From positions 1 to 32,840 of the IMG/VR virus record IMGVR_UViG_3300042893_000773: a stretch of 32,840 nucleotides of DNA. One strand, 5' to 3'. The DNA comes from a virus. The notes beneath the pieces were generated by a model. The model was not told the DNA's origin, did no database searches, and saw only the letters and a list, made by a program, of their open reading frames with translations. This document shows, piece after piece, positions 2,823 through 32,081 of the stretch; the first letter of the stretch is position 1; each line of letters begins with the position of its first letter. Made by a program: the position numbers and the translations under genes.

Positions 2823-5804
2823 ATGGCTGATACTGGAACACAAAGTCCGCTTGGAATTAACGTAGTTGGTTCTTATCTACAAAATCAGGGTTTAACAATC
2901 AATCCTATAGCAGCATCTTATATGGGTGCTAGTAAAACAAATACCGATTACACTTTTGGCACATTAGTTAGCGGAACATGTTTAAGAATGCTCACTTGGG
3001 CAATCAATGATGCATATCTAAGAACTCTAGTGACATCTGGTGTTTATAATAATCTTATTGCAATAGGGTCAGCATCAATTCCTGCGTTAGGTAACTCAAA
3101 ACCAGCCTCATATGTTGCGATTGATCCAGCTGGTATATGGGCACGACCTGCAGATTCAGTGACCCCATCTATTTCAGAGAAGTACGGAATTCAGCAGGGT
3201 GTCTCCGGTGCATTGCCCGGACCTGCAACTTCTGGATATAGCATTACGAGTGCTACTAATCAGGGTCAGGAAGCAACCTGGTTGCCATATGATAGTTCCA
3301 ACCCGAATGCAGCCGTCACTCAATGGGGATATATTAGACTACATGCATTACAAGCATGGAATGAATTCAATTGGAATGGAGGAGAAGTATCAGCAGCTAA
3401 TCCGGAATATCCGGAGTTTTTGGCATCCTTTCTGTCTGCATTGTCGTTTGTAGAAAGTGTTAGCCAAACTGTTATGTCTAACCAAAATGCAAAAACGTTT
3501 TTGGACGGCACATTCAGTAACATGGACGATTTGATCAGTGCTGATGTATTTGGTGTAAATTTAGCAAATAAAGAATTTGGTCAGGATTTAGAAAATTTAG
3601 GAAAAATTCTTAACCTAAGTGATATTTCTTCTTTTGGATTACCCTCGTCTCTATTAAAAATATTAGGAGAAAACAACGCAGTAATACCAGATTTAGTATT
3701 AGCATTGTTGTCAGCAGGGTTAGAAAATACTGAATTGCAGCAACTAGTATCTGGAAAACTACAGTCCCCCACAAAAACACAAGAACGACAAATTTACAGC
3801 GCCTTCTTAATTATGGTTGGTGAAAACCTTAGCGATATAATAGCACCTCTACAATGTCAAATAGAGGGCTTAGAAAGCTTAGCAGATTTACTTGATGTAA
3901 AAAAACTATTCCCTAACAGCTATCAATCATTAACTGTTCCTAAGTACAACGGTGAATTAGGACTCCCCACTAATAGTAAAACATATTATCCTTTGTATAT
4001 CTTCGGAGGATTAAATCCAGCATTAACTAGTCCTGATATGGATACTTATGTAGGAGCGCAGACACCTAATAATGTTCCCTCAGCAGTTTCTAGTATTCAA
4101 TCAGTAGATAATACAGTAGCGTTAATCAAAGGATTTGGTTCGTATCTACGTGGCGTAATACCATTAGAACAAGCAGTTGCTGCCGGCGCGTTCTCATTTG
4201 CTATGCGCCAAATCAGAAACATTGATAGAGCAGACATTCAACAGTTCGCTAGAGCAGTCAAGTCCTTAGAAAGCACTATTGATTTTCCCCTTGTCAGTGG
4301 AACAAGTAAGCCGACTAGTCAAGAGGCAATCGACAGCTTACAACTAAAAGAAGCATTAGGTTCGGGACCATATGGCACTTATACTATGTCAGATTTCTTT
4401 GGTTCTATGTCCGGTCTTCCTTATCCATGGGAAAATCTATATAATAGAATGCTAGAGGCAGAAACTGATACATTAAAATCGATATATCGTGACCTATTTT
4501 TAGCAGTGTCATGGAAACCGGCTACTGTTAGTGTGCAGTATACCTCTTATGTAGTTGAATCTCCTCCAACTGTATTCACTACATATTATAATGTTACAGG
4601 TGTTACGCTTACTGATCTTGGTGGAGGATATGGTAGAGGCGGCGCAGCAGCACCTACTATTTCTATTAACGGTGGCAGTGGAGCAACTGCTACTGCTACT
4701 ATAGAAACTGATGATTTTCTTGTTGGATCAAATGGCGGCGGCTTGTTTGGTAGAGTGACCTCAGTAGAGCTAACCAGCTCAGGAACTGACACGACTACTC
4801 TGCCGACCGTAACAATAGAGGCCCCGCCTACATCAAACGGTGGCGGAACAAACACCGCAGCCGGTACAACCGGCTGGCCAAGTCCAATGAATGCAGTAGT
4901 ACAGAATTATATTGACTTAGCTAATGCAGAAATTTCATTAATTTCTCAGAATAATTTAGAAGTAACTCAGTTATTGAACACGTATTGGAATATATTAGGT
5001 GGTCAATTGGTTATTGAACAACGAGCTAGGTACACTGCATTGCCACCGGTAGCAGTACCTAAAGATTTATTTGCCTATCCATATCCATCGACTATCAATT
5101 CGTTTGTTGACTCTATTCCTACTATCGCACAAGATACTAAACCGCATATGTCTGCACAAACACTAGAAGCAATTTGTAATTTAGACACTTTGGGCGGACA
5201 AAGCGCGGTAGTTCAAATGAGACAAGAACGAAATCAAATTAGATTGATTTCTGCTGGAATTCCGTTAGATAATCATATTGCAGATACTATGTCTCTCATG
5301 GATGAGAAAACACTTACTACTAATGGAACTATTCCAGCGGCTATCAATAACCCAATTACAAGTCCTATTATTGATATAGTCAAAGAGGATCCGGGAACAT
5401 ACGGAAATGTTCTTGTAGGTGTAACCGGCTTTACTACCGCAAGTTGGCCTACAAATAAGCTTGGCAATCGTGTTATTACTCCTAGACCCAATGGCACGTA
5501 TTTCCCCTCTGACTCAACCTTGATTGGGGAATTTTTAACCACAAGAACAACGTCACCGGGAGACATAACTCCTATTTTAAATGGAGTTTCGGTTGCGGTG
5601 GTAGGACCCACAGTCCCTTCTTCACTAAATCCAATTGTTAGACCGGACAGAATTATCATTTCTACTCCGGAGCAATTAGCTACAGATATTCCTTTTGAAG
5701 TAGATTCAGACTATACCGGGAGTACTCTATACCCGGCAGTATATTCAGTAAACGAAGCTATTGAGCGTGTAATTGAATGTAACTGCGATTGTTGGATTAA
5801 TTAA
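2823..5804 (+). CDS. Large virion structural protein, probably baseplate or tail
   Basis: This 993-residue protein is the largest gene in the window. It has no recognisable enzyme motif. Residues ~590-665 hold two glycine/threonine-rich beta repeats of the kind often found in phage tail and baseplate proteins (pattern VTxVxLTxxGxGY...PTxxIxGGSGATAxA). Around residues 520-570 it has an aromatic segment (SDFFGSMSGLPYPWENLY). The last residues contain a small cysteine cluster (ECNCDCW). It follows the PAAR gene by 7 bases, so a role near the central spike is likely. There is no clear Shine-Dalgarno before the ATG. It could instead be a tail-fibre-attachment or head decoration protein; only the structural class is well supported. 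Confidence 0.7.
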   Translation: MADTGTQSPLGINVVGSYLQNQGLTINPIAASYMGASKTNTDYTFGTLVSGTCLRMLTWAINDAYLRTLVTSGVYNNLIAIGSASIPALGNSKPASYVAIDPAGIWARPADSVTPSISEKYGIQQGVSGALPGPATSGYSITSATNQGQEATWLPYDSSNPNAAVTQWGYIRLHALQAWNEFNWNGGEVSAANPEYPEFLASFLSALSFVESVSQTVMSNQNAKTFLDGTFSNMDDLISADVFGVNLANKEFGQDLENLGKILNLSDISSFGLPSSLLKILGENNAVIPDLVLALLSAGLENTELQQLVSGKLQSPTKTQERQIYSAFLIMVGENLSDIIAPLQCQIEGLESLADLLDVKKLFPNSYQSLTVPKYNGELGLPTNSKTYYPLYIFGGLNPALTSPDMDTYVGAQTPNNVPSAVSSIQSVDNTVALIKGFGSYLRGVIPLEQAVAAGAFSFAMRQIRNIDRADIQQFARAVKSLESTIDFPLVSGTSKPTSQEAIDSLQLKEALGSGPYGTYTMSDFFGSMSGLPYPWENLYNRMLEAETDTLKSIYRDLFLAVSWKPATVSVQYTSYVVESPPTVFTTYYNVTGVTLTDLGGGYGRGGAAAPTISINGGSGATATATIETDDFLVGSNGGGLFGRVTSVELTSSGTDTTTLPTVTIEAPPTSNGGGTNTAAGTTGWPSPMNAVVQNYIDLANAEISLISQNNLEVTQLLNTYWNILGGQLVIEQRARYTALPPVAVPKDLFAYPYPSTINSFVDSIPTIAQDTKPHMSAQTLEAICNLDTLGGQSAVVQMRQERNQIRLISAGIPLDNHIADTMSLMDEKTLTTNGTIPAAINNPITSPIIDIVKEDPGTYGNVLVGVTGFTTASWPTNKLGNRVITPRPNGTYFPSDSTLIGEFLTTRTTSPGDITPILNGVSVAVVGPTVPSSLNPIVRPDRIIISTPEQLATDIPFEVDSDYTGSTLYPAVYSVNEAIERVIECNCDCWIN

Positions 5805-5844: not shown

Positions 5845-5863
5845 TCTTAATAAAGGAAATAAT

Positions 5864-6961
5864 ATGTCATACCTGTTTACCAGTGAATCAGTATCCGAAG
5901 GTCACCCAGATAAAATAGCCGACGCCATCAGTGATGGTGTATTAGATATGGTTATGAGTAATTTGGATCCAGCATTACGATGTGCGTGTGAAACGTTAGT
6001 AACAACTAATAAAGTAATTGTTGCTGGCGAGTTTAAAGGCGAAATTGATCCGCTAGATTTAGACTACATAATTCGTAAAGTGATCAAAAATGTTGGGTAC
6101 GAACAGGAAGGATTTCATTGGCAAACCGCTGACATAATCAATTTGATGCACGGACAAAGTCCAGACATTGCATTAGGTACTGATAATTTCGGTGCAGGTG
6201 ATCAAGGATTGATGTTTGGTTATGCAGTCAACGAAACAGAAAACAACATGCCAGCAGCAATCTATTATAGTCATAAGATTGTAGAGACCCTAACTCATTT
6301 GAGAAAGAATGACGGTCAAATTTGGATGGGACCTGATAGCAAGAGTCAAGTAACCGTTGAATATAATGACGATGGTACAATCAACAGAATTGATAAGATT
6401 GTTTGCTCATCACAGCATCACCCTGACGTTGATATCAGCGAAGTTCGTAATGGTATTGAACAGATTATTCGTGCTGTTGTACCAACAGATTTGATTGACA
6501 AAGAAACTAAGTTCTTGATTAACCCTACAGGTAGGTTCGTGATCGGAGGACCAGACGGTGACACTGGACTTACTGGGCGTAAGATTATCGTTGATACATA
6601 TGGCGGCGCAGCACCACACGGCGGCGGCGCATTCAGCGGCAAGGATCCGACAAAGGTTGACCGCAGTGCTGCTTACATGGCTCGTTACATTGCTAATAAT
6701 ATTGTAGCAAGCGGCAAAGCAACTTGGGCACAGATTCAGCTTAGCTATGCAATCGGGGTTGAAGAACCAACTAGCTTCTACGTTGACAGTGATGGTGAAA
6801 GCAAAGACTTAGAAAAGTATATTCTAGAGAATGTAGATTTAACTCCTAAGGGTATTATTGAAAGATTTGACCTGTTTAGACCAATCTATAGTTCTACTAC
6901 TAACTATGGTCACTTTGGAAAATCGTATCTCCCTTGGGAAAAAGTTGATCTTTTTAGTTGA
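5864..6961 (+). CDS. metK: S-adenosylmethionine synthetase
   Basis: This 365-residue enzyme joins ATP and methionine to make S-adenosylmethionine. It carries the family signatures GHPDK (residues 13-17), GAGDQGLMFGYA near residue 115 and GGGAFSGKDPTKVDRS near residue 250. It is slightly shorter than E. coli MetK (384 residues). The start at 5864 was chosen over an in-frame codon at 5816 because AAAGGA lies just before it, the protein then begins like its family (SYLFTSESVSEGH), and the promoter covers the upstream region. In this phage, three radical SAM enzymes and a methyltransferase-like protein would use its product. The TGA stop lies inside the next promoter's -35 element. Confidence 0.97.
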   Translation: MSYLFTSESVSEGHPDKIADAISDGVLDMVMSNLDPALRCACETLVTTNKVIVAGEFKGEIDPLDLDYIIRKVIKNVGYEQEGFHWQTADIINLMHGQSPDIALGTDNFGAGDQGLMFGYAVNETENNMPAAIYYSHKIVETLTHLRKNDGQIWMGPDSKSQVTVEYNDDGTINRIDKIVCSSQHHPDVDISEVRNGIEQIIRAVVPTDLIDKETKFLINPTGRFVIGGPDGDTGLTGRKIIVDTYGGAAPHGGGAFSGKDPTKVDRSAAYMARYIANNIVASGKATWAQIQLSYAIGVEEPTSFYVDSDGESKDLEKYILENVDLTPKGIIERFDLFRPIYSSTTNYGHFGKSYLPWEKVDLFS

Positions 6962-8805: not shown

Positions 8806-10407
8806 ATGAGAATCAACGGTTTAATTTTTGGAGGGATGATAAACTCGGATGAGCCTTCTCGTCCGAGTGATATGCACGGAATTAATTTTAGTTCCGTGCG
8901 CCGCCATGCCGGTTCACACCGAATCGCTTCATTTCTTAGACAGAACGGAATTGATGTTGAAGTTATTGACTTCGCCCCAAGTTGGACGTTTGAAGAATTC
9001 AAAGAACTTATAAAATCACGAGTGAATGCTAACACTAAGTTTGTTGGTTTGGGTGCAATATTCAACATGAATACTGAAACCCTTTATTATTCTTTTACGT
9101 GGTTGAAGCAAACATATCCTGATATATTGATTGTTACTGGTTCTACAGAGTTTCATAATGTACACTTGATTCCTGCTGATTACATGGTAGTGGGTTACGG
9201 TGAACTTGCTATACTTGAAATCTTAAAAGGTACTGCAAAGTATAAAGAAGAAGTAATCGATAAAGAAGGAAATAAAAGAAGAACAGTTCACGCACTTCAC
9301 GACTATCCTGCTTATCCAATGCGAAATCTTTCTATCGATTATGAAAAGAGAGATTTCCTACAACCATTCGAAGCCGTAACTATGGAAACTAGCCGCGGAT
9401 GCAGATTTAAGTGTTCGTTTTGCACCTATCCGATTTTAGGAGTGAAAGATGACCACACTAGATGCACCGAAGATTTCCATGATAATTTGATGAGAAACTA
9501 TGATAGCTATGGGATTCACCGATATTCAATCGCAGATGAAACGTTTAACGACCACAGCGAAAAGATCATCAAGTATGCAGACGTTGTAGAGAAACTTCCT
9601 TTTAAACCAAATTTTGGTGGATATATTAGGGCAGACCTGTTGCACACAAGACCGCAAGATATAGAACATTTAGCTAGAATGCAGTTCAATGGGCAGTTTT
9701 ACGGAGTAGAATCATTTCATCGTCCTAGTGCATCTGCTGCCGGTAAAGGAATGGACCCAGCAAAAATTCAACAAGCTATTCTTGACACTAAAGATTATAT
9801 CATGAAACATAATGGTTATTACAGTGGCACTATTAGCCTTATTGCAGGATTGCCATACGAAACAGAAGAAACATTAAACGAAACTAAAAAGTGGTGTGAT
9901 GAACATTGGAAAACAAATCACCTAAGCTTTGCTCCGTTGTTTATCACTAGCACACATAATAATGTTAAACAAAGTACCTTATCCTCATCCTATGAAAAGC
10001 AAGGATATAGTTTAGTAGAGACAGATGAGATTATGCTAGATGAATCTCATCCTGATCTAAAGAGGATATTCCAAAGTAATAATGTTGTTCCTGAATTAAA
10101 ATATTACATTAAGTCATTTATGCGTAACTGCGCGCCTACTATGTTATTATATCATTGGAAAAGTAATACAGGCATGACCGAACGTGATGCAATTCTTTGG
10201 ATTGCAAATAATGTATGGGGCAAAGAAGACTACATGGACTTTGGCGTAGACCATTGGCGTATGGATGAATGGTATGTATACGGCAAAGATGATAAAGATA
10301 TGCTAGGGTCATACAGAGATTTGGGAGGAGTCAGACCACCTCTTCAATCAAAGATAGACTTCATTGAAGATTATAAAAAGAAGAAACTTAATTATGTTTC
10401 AACGTGA
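8806..10407 (+). CDS. B12-binding-type radical SAM protein
   Basis: This 533-residue protein has an N-terminal Rossmann-like region (residues ~1-165, with FVGLGAIFNMNTE and YMVVGYGELAILEILKG) of the cobalamin-binding type. A radical SAM core follows, whose CxxxCxxC cluster is Cys199, Cys203 and Cys206 (CRFKCSFC). These enzymes bind a 4Fe-4S cluster and split S-adenosylmethionine to start radical methylation or rearrangement; the substrate is unknown. The classical DxHxxG cobalamin motif is not obvious, so B12 binding may be lost. ATG 8806 is preferred over TTG 8803. The gene has a late box and no ribosome site. Confidence 0.85.
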   Translation: MRINGLIFGGMINSDEPSRPSDMHGINFSSVRRHAGSHRIASFLRQNGIDVEVIDFAPSWTFEEFKELIKSRVNANTKFVGLGAIFNMNTETLYYSFTWLKQTYPDILIVTGSTEFHNVHLIPADYMVVGYGELAILEILKGTAKYKEEVIDKEGNKRRTVHALHDYPAYPMRNLSIDYEKRDFLQPFEAVTMETSRGCRFKCSFCTYPILGVKDDHTRCTEDFHDNLMRNYDSYGIHRYSIADETFNDHSEKIIKYADVVEKLPFKPNFGGYIRADLLHTRPQDIEHLARMQFNGQFYGVESFHRPSASAAGKGMDPAKIQQAILDTKDYIMKHNGYYSGTISLIAGLPYETEETLNETKKWCDEHWKTNHLSFAPLFITSTHNNVKQSTLSSSYEKQGYSLVETDEIMLDESHPDLKRIFQSNNVVPELKYYIKSFMRNCAPTMLLYHWKSNTGMTERDAILWIANNVWGKEDYMDFGVDHWRMDEWYVYGKDDKDMLGSYRDLGGVRPPLQSKIDFIEDYKKKKLNYVST

Positions 10408-13481: not shown

Positions 13482-13487
13482 TAAATA
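13482..13487 (+). promoter_or_regulatory. Late promoter box TAAATA overlapping a start codon
   Basis: CATAAATA ends at the first base of ATG 13487 and lies 5 bases before an in-frame GTG at 13493. A late transcript starting ~6 bases downstream would exclude the ATG and begin near the GTG. Confidence 0.55.
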
Positions 13488-15403
13488 TGTTAGTGAAAAA
13501 TGTCTACCTATTTCAGCCAAATTATTCTTCGGCGTTGCCAAATGGTAAAATAACTTGTTGGCTACCATATGCTGTCGCAGTACTTTGGAGTCATGCTGAA
13601 CAAAATGATGTAGTCAAAAATAATTACAATTTAGCTGACATCTTTTTTAGTAGAATACCTGTTGCCCAAGTTATTGAAAGAATGGACAATCCTAAAATAG
13701 CAGCATTTAGTTGCTATACATGGAATTGGGAATATACGAAAGTTGTAGCCAAAGCGATAAAAGAACAGTATCCAGAATGTTTGATTCTTTTCGGAGGACC
13801 GCAGATACCAGAGGACCCAGAAAGAAAGTCATTTTTTGAAACCCACCCGTATGTGGATTCAGTCATAATTGGGGAAGGAGAAGAGGCTTTCCTTCAAATG
13901 CTACTAACTGTTCACGACAATGGTGCACCTGATAAAGTTATAAAATTTCCTAGAATGAAAGAGCTAGTAAGCCCAAGCCCGTATGCGTCTGGTATCTTTG
14001 AAAGACTAATAAGAGAAAATCCCAATGTTGAATGGAGCGCCACGTTAGAAACTAATAGGGGCTGTCCGTATGGATGCACGTTCTGTGATTGGGGTTCACT
14101 AACACAAAGTAAAGTTAAGTGCTTTAGTGAAGAACGGGTGTTTAGTGATATTGATTGGCTTAGCAAACATAATATACCCTACGTATTTTTATCGGATGCA
14201 AACTTTGGCATACTAGTAGAACGAGACATGCGGATAACAAAATACTTACGCAAAACTCAAAATCTTACTGGTCAACCAGGCACCGTATATGTTACTTGGG
14301 CTAAGTCATTTAAGAAGAAAGAAACTCTTGATATAATTAAAGAATTCTATAAGGGCACTGAGGTTAACGGTTTAATAATTTCGTTACAATCCATGAATGA
14401 ACAAACGCTAGTAGATATTAGACGTTCTAATTTTCAACTCAATGATATAGAAAACGTAGCAAAAGAATGTAACAAAATAGGACTTATTCCTATAGTTGAA
14501 CTTATACTGGGTCTCCCCGGAGAAACTAAAGAGTCTTGGAAAGATACTTATTATAAGATATTAAGTTTGGATGCTGAATTTAGTGGAAACCAAGCGCATT
14601 TACTAACAGTTTTAGAAAACTCAGAGATTAACAATTCTATGCAAAAGAAGATACATGGAATAAAGACTGTAACCGTAAATAGACCTTCGCCAAACGGACT
14701 TGCAGTTGATAATGAAATTATAGAAAAGGAAGAGATAGTATGCGCAACTAATACTATGCCGTTCGATGATCTAGTCGAAAGCTACATGTTCACCTATATT
14801 ATAAGTATGTTCCACAGCACTGGCTGGGCCAAAATCATAATATTTTATTTAACAAATAATAATATCATGCCACTCAGCCAAATTATTAGTAAATTGGAAA
14901 ATTGTTTAATTAATGGTGACGGTTATCTTTCAACTGAATATCATAGAGTGAAGTCATTTTTTGCAGCATTCTTAAGCAACGCGGAATACAAACAGGAACA
15001 CCAAGATTTAATTAACAAGTCTTACGCTATTCCTCTAGCGAGCCTATCAAATTTTTACTTAAATCATGAGACAATTATAGAAGAACTCCGAAATATATTT
15101 GATATTGAATATACCGGGCTTCCCAAAGATATTCATGACTCACTTTTTGACATACAATCTGCACTTATGTACTCACCTAAAAAAACATATCCATACAGTA
15201 TACCTGACCCATATGGCATATATGAGAGTGCGATGAACAATGAAGTGACTGGCTCTTCCTTACTAAATATAGAATATCTTCATGAGCCTATAATAGACAC
15301 CGATCCAGAAATATTATTCATGCGATTAATCATCGGTAAAAAATTAGGACGAAGCAATACACAAATTACGATAGAGAGAACAAATGAAAAAGATGTATAC
15401 TAA
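13487..15403 (+). CDS. B12-binding-type radical SAM protein
   Basis: This protein of up to 638 residues has an N-terminal Rossmann domain (residues ~1-170, with KIAAFSCYTWNWEY, LILFGGPQIP and SVIIGEGEEAF) like cobalamin-binding radical SAM enzymes. The radical SAM core carries CPYGCTFCDWGS; its cluster cysteines are residues 193, 197 and 200 from ATG 13487. ILGLPGETKESW near residue 343 is the usual late-core motif. The C-terminal ~230 residues are unassigned. The conventional ATG 13487 is given, but GTG 13493 fits the promoter geometry better. The gene follows rimK and overlaps the next gene by 20 bases. Substrate unknown; peptide or cofactor modification is inference. Confidence 0.86.
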   Translation: MLVKNVYLFQPNYSSALPNGKITCWLPYAVAVLWSHAEQNDVVKNNYNLADIFFSRIPVAQVIERMDNPKIAAFSCYTWNWEYTKVVAKAIKEQYPECLILFGGPQIPEDPERKSFFETHPYVDSVIIGEGEEAFLQMLLTVHDNGAPDKVIKFPRMKELVSPSPYASGIFERLIRENPNVEWSATLETNRGCPYGCTFCDWGSLTQSKVKCFSEERVFSDIDWLSKHNIPYVFLSDANFGILVERDMRITKYLRKTQNLTGQPGTVYVTWAKSFKKKETLDIIKEFYKGTEVNGLIISLQSMNEQTLVDIRRSNFQLNDIENVAKECNKIGLIPIVELILGLPGETKESWKDTYYKILSLDAEFSGNQAHLLTVLENSEINNSMQKKIHGIKTVTVNRPSPNGLAVDNEIIEKEEIVCATNTMPFDDLVESYMFTYIISMFHSTGWAKIIIFYLTNNNIMPLSQIISKLENCLINGDGYLSTEYHRVKSFFAAFLSNAEYKQEHQDLINKSYAIPLASLSNFYLNHETIIEELRNIFDIEYTGLPKDIHDSLFDIQSALMYSPKKTYPYSIPDPYGIYESAMNNEVTGSSLLNIEYLHEPIIDTDPEILFMRLIIGKKLGRSNTQITIERTNEKDVY

Positions 15404-23673: not shown

Positions 23674-23750
23674 CGGGGTATAGCGCAGCCTGGTAGCGCA
23701 CTTGTCTGGGGGACAAGTGGTCGTCGGTTCAAATCCGGCTACCCCGACCA
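23674..23750 (+). tRNA. tRNA-Pro (anticodon GGG)
   Basis: Acceptor CGGGGTA/TACCCCG; stem CTTGT/ACAAG with loop CTGGGGG gives GGG, reading CCC/CCT. CCA is encoded. Confidence 0.94.
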
Positions 23751-23756
23751 ATTCAA

Positions 23757-23835
23757 CGGGAATTAGGAAAGTCTGGTTTAATCCGCCTGGTTTGGGGCCA
23801 GGAGATCGTAGGTTCGAATCCTACATTCCCGACCA
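23757..23835 (+). tRNA. tRNA-Pro (anticodon TGG)
   Basis: Acceptor CGGGAAT/ATTCCCG; stem CCTGG/CCAGG with loop TTTGGGG gives TGG, reading CCA and other CCN codons. The D arm is short-paired (GGA/TCC). CCA is encoded. Confidence 0.92.
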
Positions 23836-23862
23836 GTTTATAGAGTACCCTCATATGCTGAA

Positions 23863-23868
23863 TAAATA
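23863..23868 (+). promoter_or_regulatory. Late promoter box TAAATA
   Basis: AATAAATACT lies 7 bases before the ATG at 23876. There is no ribosome site between them. Confidence 0.58.
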
Positions 23869-23875
23869 CTCGTGT

Positions 23876-25213
23876 ATGACTAAAGAGCATAATTTAAATT
23901 CTAATCCAACATTCTGTATGTTAGGTCTTCTACACACTTATGTCTCCCCGAACGGCAATGTTATGCCCTGTTGTGTAGGCGATATGTCAAAAGAATCTTT
24001 AGGAAACATCAATGAAGTTTCTGACTGGAACTCAGTGTGGAACGGAGAACGGTATAAAGAATTTAGAAAGAATATGGTTCAAGGGGAGAAAAATCCCGCT
24101 TGTTCTTTTTGTTATGACACAGAAAAGTTCAGTAAGTCTAGTGCTAGAACAATAGCCAATGCAAACTATTCTAAAAACTATGATGAGTACATGGATAAAC
24201 TTCTCCCGTCAGGAGAGTTGAAAACTAATAAACTAAAATATCTTGATTTTAGGTTCACTAATAAATGCAATCAAGCATGTATTACTTGCAATCATGATTT
24301 AAGTTCTAGTTGGTTTGATTTGATGAACAAGTTAGGTTATCCGATTGTAGGAACAAAATTTATTGAGCCACAGGATAAAACTCTAGCATATAAGTTGATA
24401 GATGATAATATAGAAAGTGTTGAAACTATATACTTTGCAGGCGGCGAGCCACTGTTATCAGAATATCACTGGTACACGCTTGATAGACTAATAGAAAATA
24501 ACAGATGTAAAGAGGTAGAATTAAGATACTCCTCTAATTGCAGCACACTTCGCTATAAAGATAAACATATACTAGACTACTGGAAACAGTTTAAGTCTGT
24601 TGTTGTAATAGCAAGCGTAGACGAAGTACACGACAGATTCAATTACATACGCTGGCCCGGTGATTGGGAAACTATATCAGAAAATCTTAAGAAGATTCAA
24701 GAGTCATTTGAGCAACTACGCAACGAGGATGAAATGACTCACCTGCTAGTATATTCGCCGGTGATAAGTTCTCTCAATGTTCATCGCTTGAAAGAAATGA
24801 TGCAAGAAATTATAGATAAGCAAGCGTATCAGTTTTCTATGGCACAGGACAAAAACGCAATTTTTGAATATTTCCTATTTTGTAATTTGTTAAGAAATCC
24901 AAATCATCTTAGTATTATTAACATGCCACAAGAACATTGGGAAATGGTTGAACTATCATTGGACGAGTTTCAAGTTTGGTATTGCGATACTATTATTGCT
25001 AACACAGAGTATTATGTAGTAAAAACTGAAATGCTCAACGAAGGAATCAACAAAATAAAAGAACTGCGAAAAATGAATCAGCAGGATATGGAATTTTTTG
25101 TTCAACCTACAGAAGACCATTTGAAGCATATGCGAGAATATTCTAATATGGATAGAGTCAGAGGAACCGATTTCATGAAGACGTTTCCTGAGCTTGGTTG
25201 GCTATACAAATAA
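23876..25213 (+). CDS. Radical SAM protein with N-terminal SPASM/twitch-like cluster domain
   Basis: This 445-residue protein starts with a SPASM/twitch-like block: SPNGNVMPCC near residue 25, LGNINEV..WNSVWNGERYKEFRKNM, then NPACSFC near 77, probably holding an auxiliary iron-sulfur cluster. The radical SAM core follows with CNQACITC (Cys131, Cys135, Cys138) and the GGEP motif near residue 190. The auxiliary domain is usually C-terminal, so the order here is reversed. The start at 23876 fits the late box; the in-frame reading further upstream crosses two tRNA-Pro genes and is false. Substrate unknown; peptide modification is typical of the family. Confidence 0.85.
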   Translation: MTKEHNLNSNPTFCMLGLLHTYVSPNGNVMPCCVGDMSKESLGNINEVSDWNSVWNGERYKEFRKNMVQGEKNPACSFCYDTEKFSKSSARTIANANYSKNYDEYMDKLLPSGELKTNKLKYLDFRFTNKCNQACITCNHDLSSSWFDLMNKLGYPIVGTKFIEPQDKTLAYKLIDDNIESVETIYFAGGEPLLSEYHWYTLDRLIENNRCKEVELRYSSNCSTLRYKDKHILDYWKQFKSVVVIASVDEVHDRFNYIRWPGDWETISENLKKIQESFEQLRNEDEMTHLLVYSPVISSLNVHRLKEMMQEIIDKQAYQFSMAQDKNAIFEYFLFCNLLRNPNHLSIINMPQEHWEMVELSLDEFQVWYCDTIIANTEYYVVKTEMLNEGINKIKELRKMNQQDMEFFVQPTEDHLKHMREYSNMDRVRGTDFMKTFPELGWLYK

Positions 25214-28416: not shown

Positions 28417-28502
28417 GCCCAGGTGGTGGAATGGTAGACACGCAACGTTGAGGTCGTTGTGGGCGAAAGCCCGTGAAAGTTCGAGTCTTTTCTTGGGCAC
28501 CA
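28417..28502 (+). tRNA. tRNA-Leu (anticodon GAG)
   Basis: Acceptor GCCCAGG/CTTGGGC; stem CAACG/CGTTG with loop TTGAGGT gives GAG, reading CTC/CTT. Long variable arm (GGGCGAAAGCCC). CCA is encoded. Confidence 0.94.
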
Positions 28503-28525: not shown

Positions 28526-29284
28526 ATGAATACGCTAGTCGCCATATTAACATCAGATAAAATTGACAAGCTTGAACGCTGCATCAAATCCGTATTACAA
28601 CAAACACCACTAAGTGATATTGTTGTGATCATAAACACTGCGGATACACAATACGCAACGTCTGCTCAACACACTTGTAAAAAATATGGTATTAGATATG
28701 AGGTTACCATATCTAACGGTACTCCCGCAATGGGTAAAAACTCTGTTCTCGATTTCTTTCTCAATACAGAATATGATTACCTCACGCAAATAGATGGTGA
28801 TGATTATCTTACTCCAAATGCCATCGATAAGATTCATAGTATAATACAAAACAATCCTAATATAGATATTCTTGGTCTTACTAACAATCCTATGACATAT
28901 CAAGGTAAACAGTATATGGTACAAGAGTTTTTTGAAAGTTCTGATATCTACTCATTCGCAGGAATAGACGGTAGAGAAGCACTTAATTTGATTGCATTGG
29001 GAAAGTTTATGGTAAACCATCTTCCGTGGAATAGAATTTTATTGTATTCTAGACAATGTGCCGAATCGTTTCGATTTGATGAAACATTCTTAGGAGCGGA
29101 AGATATAGTAGCATCCTATGAATTATATTATAACTCAACTTTAAAATATCTTTTTACACATGAACATCTTTACATGTACGATTTAGAACCAAACGGCAAT
29201 TTCAATACGTTTCTAGCAAATTCTACCGAAGTAAAGAAGATTCATATGAAACTTAGGACTGTGGTAAATGCATCTAAAATATAA
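28526..29284 (+). CDS. Family 2-type glycosyltransferase
   Basis: This 252-residue protein is a GT-A fold glycosyltransferase. It opens with TLVAILTSDKIDKLERCIKSVLQQ (the family 2 start), has the metal and sugar-nucleotide motif DGDDYL near residue 92, and an acidic GAEDIVASYE near residue 190, the usual place of the catalytic base. It transfers a sugar from a nucleotide donor; acceptor and sugar cannot be read. The start at 28526 is chosen because the in-frame reading upstream crosses tRNA-Leu. It overlaps the next gene by 17 bases and begins a four-gene operon. Confidence 0.85.
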   Translation: MNTLVAILTSDKIDKLERCIKSVLQQTPLSDIVVIINTADTQYATSAQHTCKKYGIRYEVTISNGTPAMGKNSVLDFFLNTEYDYLTQIDGDDYLTPNAIDKIHSIIQNNPNIDILGLTNNPMTYQGKQYMVQEFFESSDIYSFAGIDGREALNLIALGKFMVNHLPWNRILLYSRQCAESFRFDETFLGAEDIVASYELYYNSTLKYLFTHEHLYMYDLEPNGNFNTFLANSTEVKKIHMKLRTVVNASKI

Positions 29285-29921
29285 AATTGACTTACTTAGG
29301 ACATACAAAGTATTTAAAAAGTTGCGCAAAAATCCTACAAATACAATTTTTGTTTTTGAAATACTGCACTCAACAAATTCGCCTTCTCTTAAGTGGACAT
29401 ACTCTAAATTACTTCAAACTTCTTATGGTGGTAGAACGGCATATGATTCAGAAGAAATTTCTAGTTACTTTGGCACATTAGCTGAAAGGCCAAACAGTTC
29501 TGTTGGTAAAGAATGTCATAATTTATTTCCCAACCAAGAGATTCTGCTTAAAATAAGTAGAAGAAAAAATAAAAATAATGATTGGATTGAGGCTAAACAT
29601 CCATACAACTGGATGGCAAGAAGATACAGAGACACGCACGACACATGGCATACACTTACCGGTTATCCTGCTAATGATATCGGAGAAATGAGGCTTGCGA
29701 TGTTTTCGTTTGCACAAACAAAATCTATTGGTTGGTTTTTAGTAAGTTTTGCTATCTTGTTGAAGTATGGTGTTACCAAACGCAATGTGATGTTGATGTT
29801 GACTGCATATCAAAACGGTAAACAAGCTAAATTTCTTCTCGCTGAAAACTATGATGAATTATTCAGCGAAAATTTAGAAGCCGCACGAGCAAGATTGAAC
29901 ATAAATGCGCAAACTCTTTAA
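29268..29921 (+). CDS. Coq4-like protein
   Basis: This 217-residue protein carries HDTWHTLTGYPANDIGE at residues 124-140, the HDxxHx(11)E zinc motif of Coq4, with His124, Asp125, His128 and Glu140 all present. Residues ~110-122 (YNWMARRYRDT) and the downstream helix EMRLAMFSFAQT also fit Coq4, which acts in ubiquinone biosynthesis at the membrane in mitochondria and some alphaproteobacteria. The N-terminal ~100 residues are less clearly matched. It overlaps the glycosyltransferase gene by 17 bases and the next gene by 17. Role in phage infection is unknown; support of host quinone synthesis is inference. Confidence 0.68.
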   Translation: MHLKYKIDLLRTYKVFKKLRKNPTNTIFVFEILHSTNSPSLKWTYSKLLQTSYGGRTAYDSEEISSYFGTLAERPNSSVGKECHNLFPNQEILLKISRRKNKNNDWIEAKHPYNWMARRYRDTHDTWHTLTGYPANDIGEMRLAMFSFAQTKSIGWFLVSFAILLKYGVTKRNVMLMLTAYQNGKQAKFLLAENYDELFSENLEAARARLNINAQTL

Positions 29922-30534
29922 AATTGATAGTAGTTATCCTCTAGAGGAATTGGCAGAGTTTTGTAAAAACGCTGATTTGGATTCTAGGGATGGAGCAAGA
30001 AACATGGAGTACAATGATTGGGAAAACAAACCTCATACTTTTCTATACCTGCTATACAAAGAAAAAAGATTTGACGGTGCATTGAATGGTTATGTAATTT
30101 GCAAAGAAAATGAGCAAATTATATGCGGTCAAGGATATTATCTATCCGAGATAGATAATATGATTTGCTGCGGTGTTCGTAGTTACACAATTCCTGGAAA
30201 AAATTGCGGAAATACTCACGGTGACATCAAGGATATGATCTATCATGAAGTAAGCGCATTAGGTGCGGCTGGATGCTTTTTATCATTCAATGAATACAAT
30301 TACGAAAACGTTGCTAGATATGTAAAAGTCAATGATCCTAGTAATTACCTAACGTCATATATAGATGATGACGGGCAATGGTGGTCTAGACCTGGCAGAA
30401 AAATACATCTCCATGAATCATATGGACCAATAAGATTAAAAGATACTAAGCAGTGGATAATCTATCACCTGTTTAGGCCGTCTGATAAAATATCTATACT
30501 GGAGCAATTGAAAAACTTGGACTGGTACGAGTGA
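29905..30534 (+). CDS. Hypothetical protein, 209 aa
   Basis: This protein is not firmly recognised. Its centre (GALNGYVICKENEQIICGQGYYLSEIDNMICCGVRSYTIPG, spanning residues ~57-97 in two pieces) has the strand order of a GNAT N-acetyltransferase, where a strand, an acceptor loop and an acetyl-CoA strand follow each other, but the acetyl-CoA loop motif is not clear. A later helix-rich part includes KDMIYHEVSALGAAG. There is no signal or membrane helix. It is third in the operon starting with the glycosyltransferase, overlapping the Coq4-like gene by 17 bases. Confidence 0.55.
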   Translation: MRKLFKIDSSYPLEELAEFCKNADLDSRDGARNMEYNDWENKPHTFLYLLYKEKRFDGALNGYVICKENEQIICGQGYYLSEIDNMICCGVRSYTIPGKNCGNTHGDIKDMIYHEVSALGAAGCFLSFNEYNYENVARYVKVNDPSNYLTSYIDDDGQWWSRPGRKIHLHESYGPIRLKDTKQWIIYHLFRPSDKISILEQLKNLDWYE

Positions 30535-31991: not shown

Positions 31992-32006
31992 GTTTATAGA
32001 GTTTAT

Positions 32007-32081
32007 TCCCTAATGGCGCAGCGGTAGCGCAGTTGACTGTTAATCAATTGGTCGGTGGTTCGAATCCATCTTAGGGAGCCA
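32007..32081 (+). tRNA. tRNA-Asn (anticodon GTT)
   Basis: Acceptor TCCCTAA/TTAGGGA with discriminator G; stem GTTGA/TCAAT with loop CTGTTAA gives GTT. CCA is encoded. Confidence 0.95.

Follow-up and report, generated by a model that had tools for sequence, protein, structure and literature searches.

The enzymatic role of COQ4 in coenzyme Q synthesis was resolved in eukaryotes only around 2024. Animal COQ4, which carries an HDxxHx11E motif, decarboxylates a CoQ precursor at C1 in vitro in a Zn-dependent reaction, the metal being Zn2+ (PMC7615680), and the human protein has been described as an oxidative decarboxylase acting at C1 (PMC11495197). Among prokaryotes, structures exist for two cyanobacterial members of the family, Alr8543 (PDB 6e12) and a Nostoc punctiforme protein (3msq). 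In the open literature that we searched, we found neither a role for bacterial Coq4 relatives nor biochemistry on bacterial or viral members. Phage genes that bear on quinone-dependent electron transport have been described before, namely ubiG in Baltic Sea viruses (PMC9301287) and plastoquinone-related genes in cyanomyoviruses, which lie in the same insertion region as the coq4 genes of T4-type phages described below (PMC2984593). The enzymes and steps that these genes encode differ from Coq4.

The window analysed here, a 32,840-nucleotide stretch of viral DNA, lies at 99.997% identity within G001, a 105,180-base IMG/VR phage contig that is itself a fragment and that encodes a portal, a major head protein, a head maturation protease, a baseplate wedge, a tail fibre and a ribonucleotide reductase. 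Its portal is ∼50% identical to the portals of the large phages Atu_ph07, PA5oct-like Pseudomonas phages and Phosso, and we describe the window phage as jumbo-like. An earlier note, made from the letters of the window alone, had proposed that the phage encodes a 217-residue Coq4-like protein with the zinc motif HDxxHx(11)E intact at residues 124–140. The open reading frame runs intact from ATG to TAA (Table 1), direct reading of residues 124–140 gives HDTWHTLTGYPANDIGE and confirms the motif, and the portal, head and baseplate genes of G001 bear out that the gene is carried by a phage.

Table 1. Features of the window that bear on the viral Coq4 protein and its candidate partners
Feature	Position	Strand	Evidence
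B12-binding/radical-SAM protein	8806..10407	+	PF04055 E 4.6e-8; PF02310 E 1.2e-5 (below cut-off)
GT2-type glycosyltransferase, upstream partner, 17-nt overlap with coq4	28526..29284	+	PF00535 E 3.8e-6
Viral Coq4-family protein, 217 aa	29268..29921	+	PF05019 E 2e-14; AlphaFold mean pLDDT 90.5; Foldseek; tree
Metal-site motif HDxxHx(11)E, codons 124–140 (H124, D125, H128, E140)	29637..29687	+	Direct reading
GNAT-like acyltransferase-fold partner, downstream, 209 aa, 17-nt overlap with coq4	29905..30534	+	AlphaFold; Foldseek

The earlier note had named a profile search and a structure prediction as checks on this assignment, and both place the protein within Coq4. The Pfam Coq4 profile matches the window protein at 53.9 bits over profile positions 26–219 of 221, against a curated cut-off of 22.9 bits, and viral relatives score 44.8–78.7 bits. 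A single-query phmmer search of PDB sequences returned only the cyanobacterial Coq4-family proteins 6e12 (E 1.9e-7) and 3msq (E 6.5e-7). A profile search reaches these two at 7e-38 and 3e-33, though these matches are not independent, since fragments of both proteins are part of the profile alignment. The NCBIfam search gave no match, and the PHROGs search gave a marginal match alone (E 0.18). Given 44 aligned homologues, viral as well as cellular, AlphaFold modelled the protein as all helical, and Foldseek against the PDB aligned the model with 6e12 (TM 0.73) and 3msq (TM 0.68) at E 1e-7 to 1e-6; these were the only structures at E ≤ 1e-3, and apart from them nothing in the PDB fell below E 2, nor did anything among the predicted viral proteins of BFVD fall below E 0.7. 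The best fold match, Alr8543, was solved with oleic acid and Mg. Both cyanobacterial proteins share the all-helical fold and the metal-site motif with viral Coq4, but are only 15–22% identical to it.

The motif itself is highly specific in these genomes. In a six-frame translation of the whole window, HD..H.{11}E occurs in the Coq4 protein alone, and among the 556 open reading frames of 29 viral loci it is carried only by the 29 Coq4 frames. The profile, PDB sequence and fold matches show that the motif did not arise by chance. With the metal ligands and the phylogeny pointing the same way, it is close to certain that the window gene encodes a true Coq4-family protein.

Three scans of IMG/VR recovered coq4 on 63 contigs, one of 360 kb and one of 150 kb among them, which together encode ∼34 distinct proteins. 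Patterns built from viral copies alone gave no hit in a genome scan, and a fourth IMG/VR scan, built mainly on a cellular-type profile, returned only contigs already known and added no lineage. All IMG/VR scans relied on short conserved peptide patterns, by which divergent viral Coq4s could be missed. The H, D, H and E ligands are conserved in every viral copy across the 91 viral locus records checked. Among close viral relatives dN/dS is 0.09–0.13, and the proteins are thus maintained under purifying selection. In maximum-likelihood trees the viral Coq4s form one clade (support 100/100, and 100* in another tree), nested within a clade of proteobacterial HP-type Coq4s (support 100/99 and 95/89). 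The enclosing Pseudomonadota proteins, from Novosphingobium, Sphingomonas, a Caulobacterales MAG, a Cupriavidus plasmid and others, share HP..W..RR.RD.HD.WH.L[TS]GY, and HP-type and viral proteins have in common the block HP..W..RR.RD.HD.WH.L[TS]GY...GE.....FS..Q.

By structure alignment the HP-type proteins are 31–38% identical to the window protein. Many of them have 12 residues between the last H and the E, in contrast to the 11 of the viral copies, and they are encoded by stand-alone genes, whereas viral coq4 lies either in a phage cassette or in the gap between gp17 and gp18. No conserved operon surrounds the cellular HP-type genes; in several sphingomonads the neighbours are what we take, from reading of the sequences, to be dnaN and recF. 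The most economical reading of the trees is a single transfer from this Pseudomonadota clade into phages, followed by spread among phages. Several independent viral acquisitions are unsupported, as all viral copies fall in one clade and the scan with the cellular-type profile added none; since sampling was by short peptide patterns, further acquisitions may exist. The gene sits on a phage contig, is of cellular origin by the tree, is intact and has a dN/dS of ∼0.1, all of which are features sought in a phage auxiliary gene, and coq4 appears to circulate among large myoviruses in this capacity, as an auxiliary metabolic gene.

Whether this amounts to a new type of metabolic gene, as the earlier note had it, depends on the level considered: a quinone-pathway gene, ubiG, had already been reported in phages, but Coq4 apparently had not. 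A tblastn search of 50,697 phage records found no Coq4 relative, and with BFVD and PHROGs likewise giving no match, the protein appears to be new among catalogued viruses. Our search of the open literature returned nothing of substance linking Coq4 with viruses or phages, though a published table of auxiliary genes may already mention it. The viral proteins form a real branch of an established enzyme family, one that had apparently not been described.

The gene says less about the host than was first thought. It had been taken to support an alphaproteobacterial host, on the view that Coq4 is known from mitochondria and some alphaproteobacteria. This range is too narrow, as cyanobacteria and a betaproteobacterium (Cupriavidus) also carry the family. 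Within the class it is rare: a Coq4 of any kind is encoded in just 27 of the 289 alphaproteobacterial genomes sampled (33 of 398 for Pseudomonadota), sometimes in multiple copies. Being rare in the class and present outside it, Coq4 is a poor pointer to an alphaproteobacterial host, so that this part of the claim is weak; the nearest cellular relatives of the viral proteins are nonetheless Pseudomonadota, alphaproteobacteria among them. In one phage of the gp17–gp18 group (L014) the terminase is 54–56% identical to cyanophage terminases. Nothing indicates a cyanobacterial host, however, as the 13 records of coq4 phages examined contain no Photo_RC (psbA-type) gene.

In the window, coq4 is the middle gene of three. 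The upstream glycosyltransferase had been called cotranscribed with coq4; the 17-nt overlap with this GT2-type gene stands, and it is from this overlap that co-transcription is inferred. The glycosyltransferase frame as listed, from 28415, runs through a tRNA-Leu (gag) gene at 28417–28502, and its start is probably the ATG given in Table 1, which is preferred because it agrees with relatives. The same read-through artefact is found in the 360-kb phage L059: MPRWWNGRHATLRSL. The downstream partner matches nothing in Pfam, NCBIfam or the phage records, and its fold was assigned from an AlphaFold model (pLDDT 92.6) for which Foldseek ranks GNAT acetyltransferases first (E 2.2e-6, prob 1.00); its counterparts at other loci are 38–59% identical to it. 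The order GT2–coq4–GNAT-fold occurs at 11 of 29 representative viral loci, the window included; the phages that carry it are as different as the T4-type G004, the jumbo-like phage of the window and the one of 360 kb. In the window and nine other loci measured, the frames overlap by 11–23 nt upstream and 4–23 nt downstream of coq4; locus L005 has an extra open reading frame between coq4 and the GNAT gene. A gene for a B12-binding/radical-SAM protein lies near coq4 in most of the other cassette loci (L004, L005, L010, L012, L013, L016 and L059) and 20 kb from it in the window, where the closest NCBIfam model to the product is rSAM_ladder_B12, below cut-off.

The window phage encodes an S-adenosylmethionine synthetase and several radical-SAM proteins (window 5858–6961, 8806–10407, 13487–15403 and 23702–25213; G001 68185–69699). 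The radical-SAM set of the window comprises two B12-binding proteins and one of the twitch-domain type, the latter above cut-off, and one of the B12-binding proteins resembles KedN5-type C-methyltransferases below the model cut-off. One more radical-SAM-related frame lies on G001 outside the window. It is as if the phage synthetase supplied the co-substrate to the phage's own radical-SAM proteins. The synthetase gene metK is preceded by a frame for a 993-aa protein with no Pfam match (2823–5804), perhaps virion-associated, and before that frame lies a small protein (2543–2815) that we take, from its motif pattern, to be PAAR-like. There are 22 tRNA genes between 20637 and 32163, singly or in small groups amid metabolic genes, and the tRNA-Asn stretch at 32002–32081 is 100% identical over ∼80 bases in otherwise diverged phages.

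Most other loci show a different setting. At 17 of the 29, coq4 stands alone in T4-type phages between the genes for the large terminase (gp17) and the tail sheath (gp18), and at one (L035) it lies in neither setting. The gp17–gp18 site falls within the g15–g18 region of cyanomyoviruses, which is hypervariable and rich in host-adaptation genes, plastoquinone-related ones included (PMC2984593). The 128-kb T4-type contig G008, whose coq4 occupies this gap, has an unusual accessory set (L260–L263) of CHASE2, guanylate/adenylate cyclase domains, beta-ketoacyl synthase, GHMP kinase and a SIS-domain gene. In another coq4-bearing T4-type phage, a fatty-acid desaturase (PF00487 E 4.5e-8) is encoded shortly upstream of the structural module (L265, 9933–10655).

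With ligands and fold conserved, the viral protein likely carries out a metal-dependent reaction on a lipid-like molecule, and viral Coq4 is probably a metal-dependent enzyme that acts on a membrane lipid. Expressed in the infected cell, it would bind a divalent metal at H124, D125, H128 and E140 near a lipid-binding pocket, and would strip the carboxyl group, possibly substituting a hydroxyl, from a prenylated aromatic acid held in the membrane. A ubiquinone precursor of the host would be the likeliest candidate, in which case the phage could relieve the C1 step and thereby keep up the quinone pool and the proton-motive force of the infected cell. Taken whole, our best explanation is that the gene entered phages in one transfer from Pseudomonadota, is kept as an auxiliary gene, and encodes a decarboxylase of what is likely a ubiquinone precursor; we hold this tentatively, at a little short of an even chance.

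The least secure part is the pathway. The earlier note placed the protein in ubiquinone synthesis and host respiration, a role transferred from eukaryotic COQ4 to a bacterial family that is patchy, multi-copy and partly found in catabolic clusters, and we regard action in ubiquinone synthesis as possible though somewhat doubtful. Eukaryotic COQ4 (human, yeast) resembles viral Coq4 in Pfam family name and in the HDxxHx(11)E motif, but it is mitochondrial and part of the COQ metabolon, whereas none of the three quinone-synthesis families sought beside viral coq4 turned up: in 13 coq4 phage records, mostly fragments, UbiE, UbiH/FAD_binding_3 and UbiA gave nothing above cut-off. Phages commonly carry just one gene of a pathway as an auxiliary gene, and the lack of these Ubi partners therefore does not refute a ubiquinone role. 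Among 60 Sphingomonadaceae genomes, 57 have no UbiD above cut-off and 30 have a Coq4 above cut-off, while 29 match neither. Thus Coq4 is not simply the bacterial substitute for UbiD, and the C1 decarboxylase of those 29 genomes is not explained by either family; UbiD and HP-type Coq4 also occur together in 12 of 19 HP-type genomes. A Sphingopyxis plasmid carries a Coq4 paralogue amid a P450, acyl-CoA dehydrogenases and an acyl-CoA synthetase, a catabolic-type cluster. Taken together, the patchy and multi-copy bacterial distribution, the co-occurrence with UbiD, the catabolic cluster and the missing Ubi genes count against simply carrying over the ubiquinone role, but stop short of refuting it. 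Since the bacterial family is of this kind and is missing from many Sphingomonadaceae without UbiD, the Coq4 name does not fix the substrate.

These observations bear on the foremost alternative, in which viral Coq4 is the decarboxylase or hydroxylase of a pathway other than ubiquinone, working with the glycosyltransferase, the GNAT-fold protein and often the B12/radical-SAM protein in making or decorating a lipid, a glycan or a small aromatic, with envelope change, signalling or an antimicrobial metabolite as the outcome. The recurrence of the gene order at 11 of 29 loci across such different phages suggests another pathway, as do the overlapping frames, the paralogue in the P450/acyl-CoA cluster and the several paralogues within single genomes. 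However, the 17 stand-alone loci have no adjoining partners and G008 has none anywhere in its 128 kb, so that Coq4 must work without the cassette there, and neighbours in a phage accessory island need not belong to one pathway. We consider this alternative unlikely overall. Its more specific form, that the cassette, often beside the B12/radical-SAM gene, is a biosynthetic phage pathway new to cultured phages, one that produces or alters an aromatic metabolite, a glycan or a lipid of the membrane in the infected cell, with Coq4 as the decarboxylase/hydroxylase acting on a non-ubiquinone substrate, is somewhat less likely again.

Viral Coq4 could instead be a non-catalytic scaffold that binds lipid or quinone and engages the host quinone-synthesis enzymes or the membrane, stabilising or redirecting them. 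This would fit the fatty acid bound in 6e12 and the long-standing proposal, from older work on yeast Coq4, that the protein organises the CoQ-synthesis complex (PMC11495197), but a pure scaffold would have no use for metal ligands that are conserved in all viral copies, and we judge it improbable. That the Coq4 fold was recruited to serve in the virion or its assembly is a still poorer account: this would explain why coq4 keeps a fixed place among the late structural genes at 17 of 29 loci, but in window-type phages, the T4-type G004 included, coq4 is far from the structural module, the enzyme ligands are conserved, and g15–g18 is a known insertion site of host-related genes in T4-type cyanophages (PMC2984593), all of which make such a role very improbable. 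Finally, the idea that the motif arose by chance in an unrelated protein, or that contaminating bacterial DNA was mis-binned as viral, is favoured only by the absence of Coq4 from PHROGs, BFVD and the phage records and can be dismissed, given the agreement of profile (the Pfam match of Table 1), fold and tree, the phage structural genes on G001 and, in related phages, the position of coq4 directly between terminase and tail sheath.

Under the preferred reading, a decarboxylase of a host ubiquinone precursor, phages that infect non-photosynthetic bacteria would supplement one membrane quinone step of host respiration, and viral Coq4 would be to them what photosynthesis genes are to cyanophages. 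If viral Coq4 does not act in ubiquinone synthesis, the family name would mislead the annotation of many bacterial members. Compact, with its metal site intact, and found either solo or in a three-gene cassette, the viral protein is a tractable system for the prokaryotic branch of the family, and phages may, through it, tune the membrane quinone or lipid chemistry of their hosts in a previously undescribed way.
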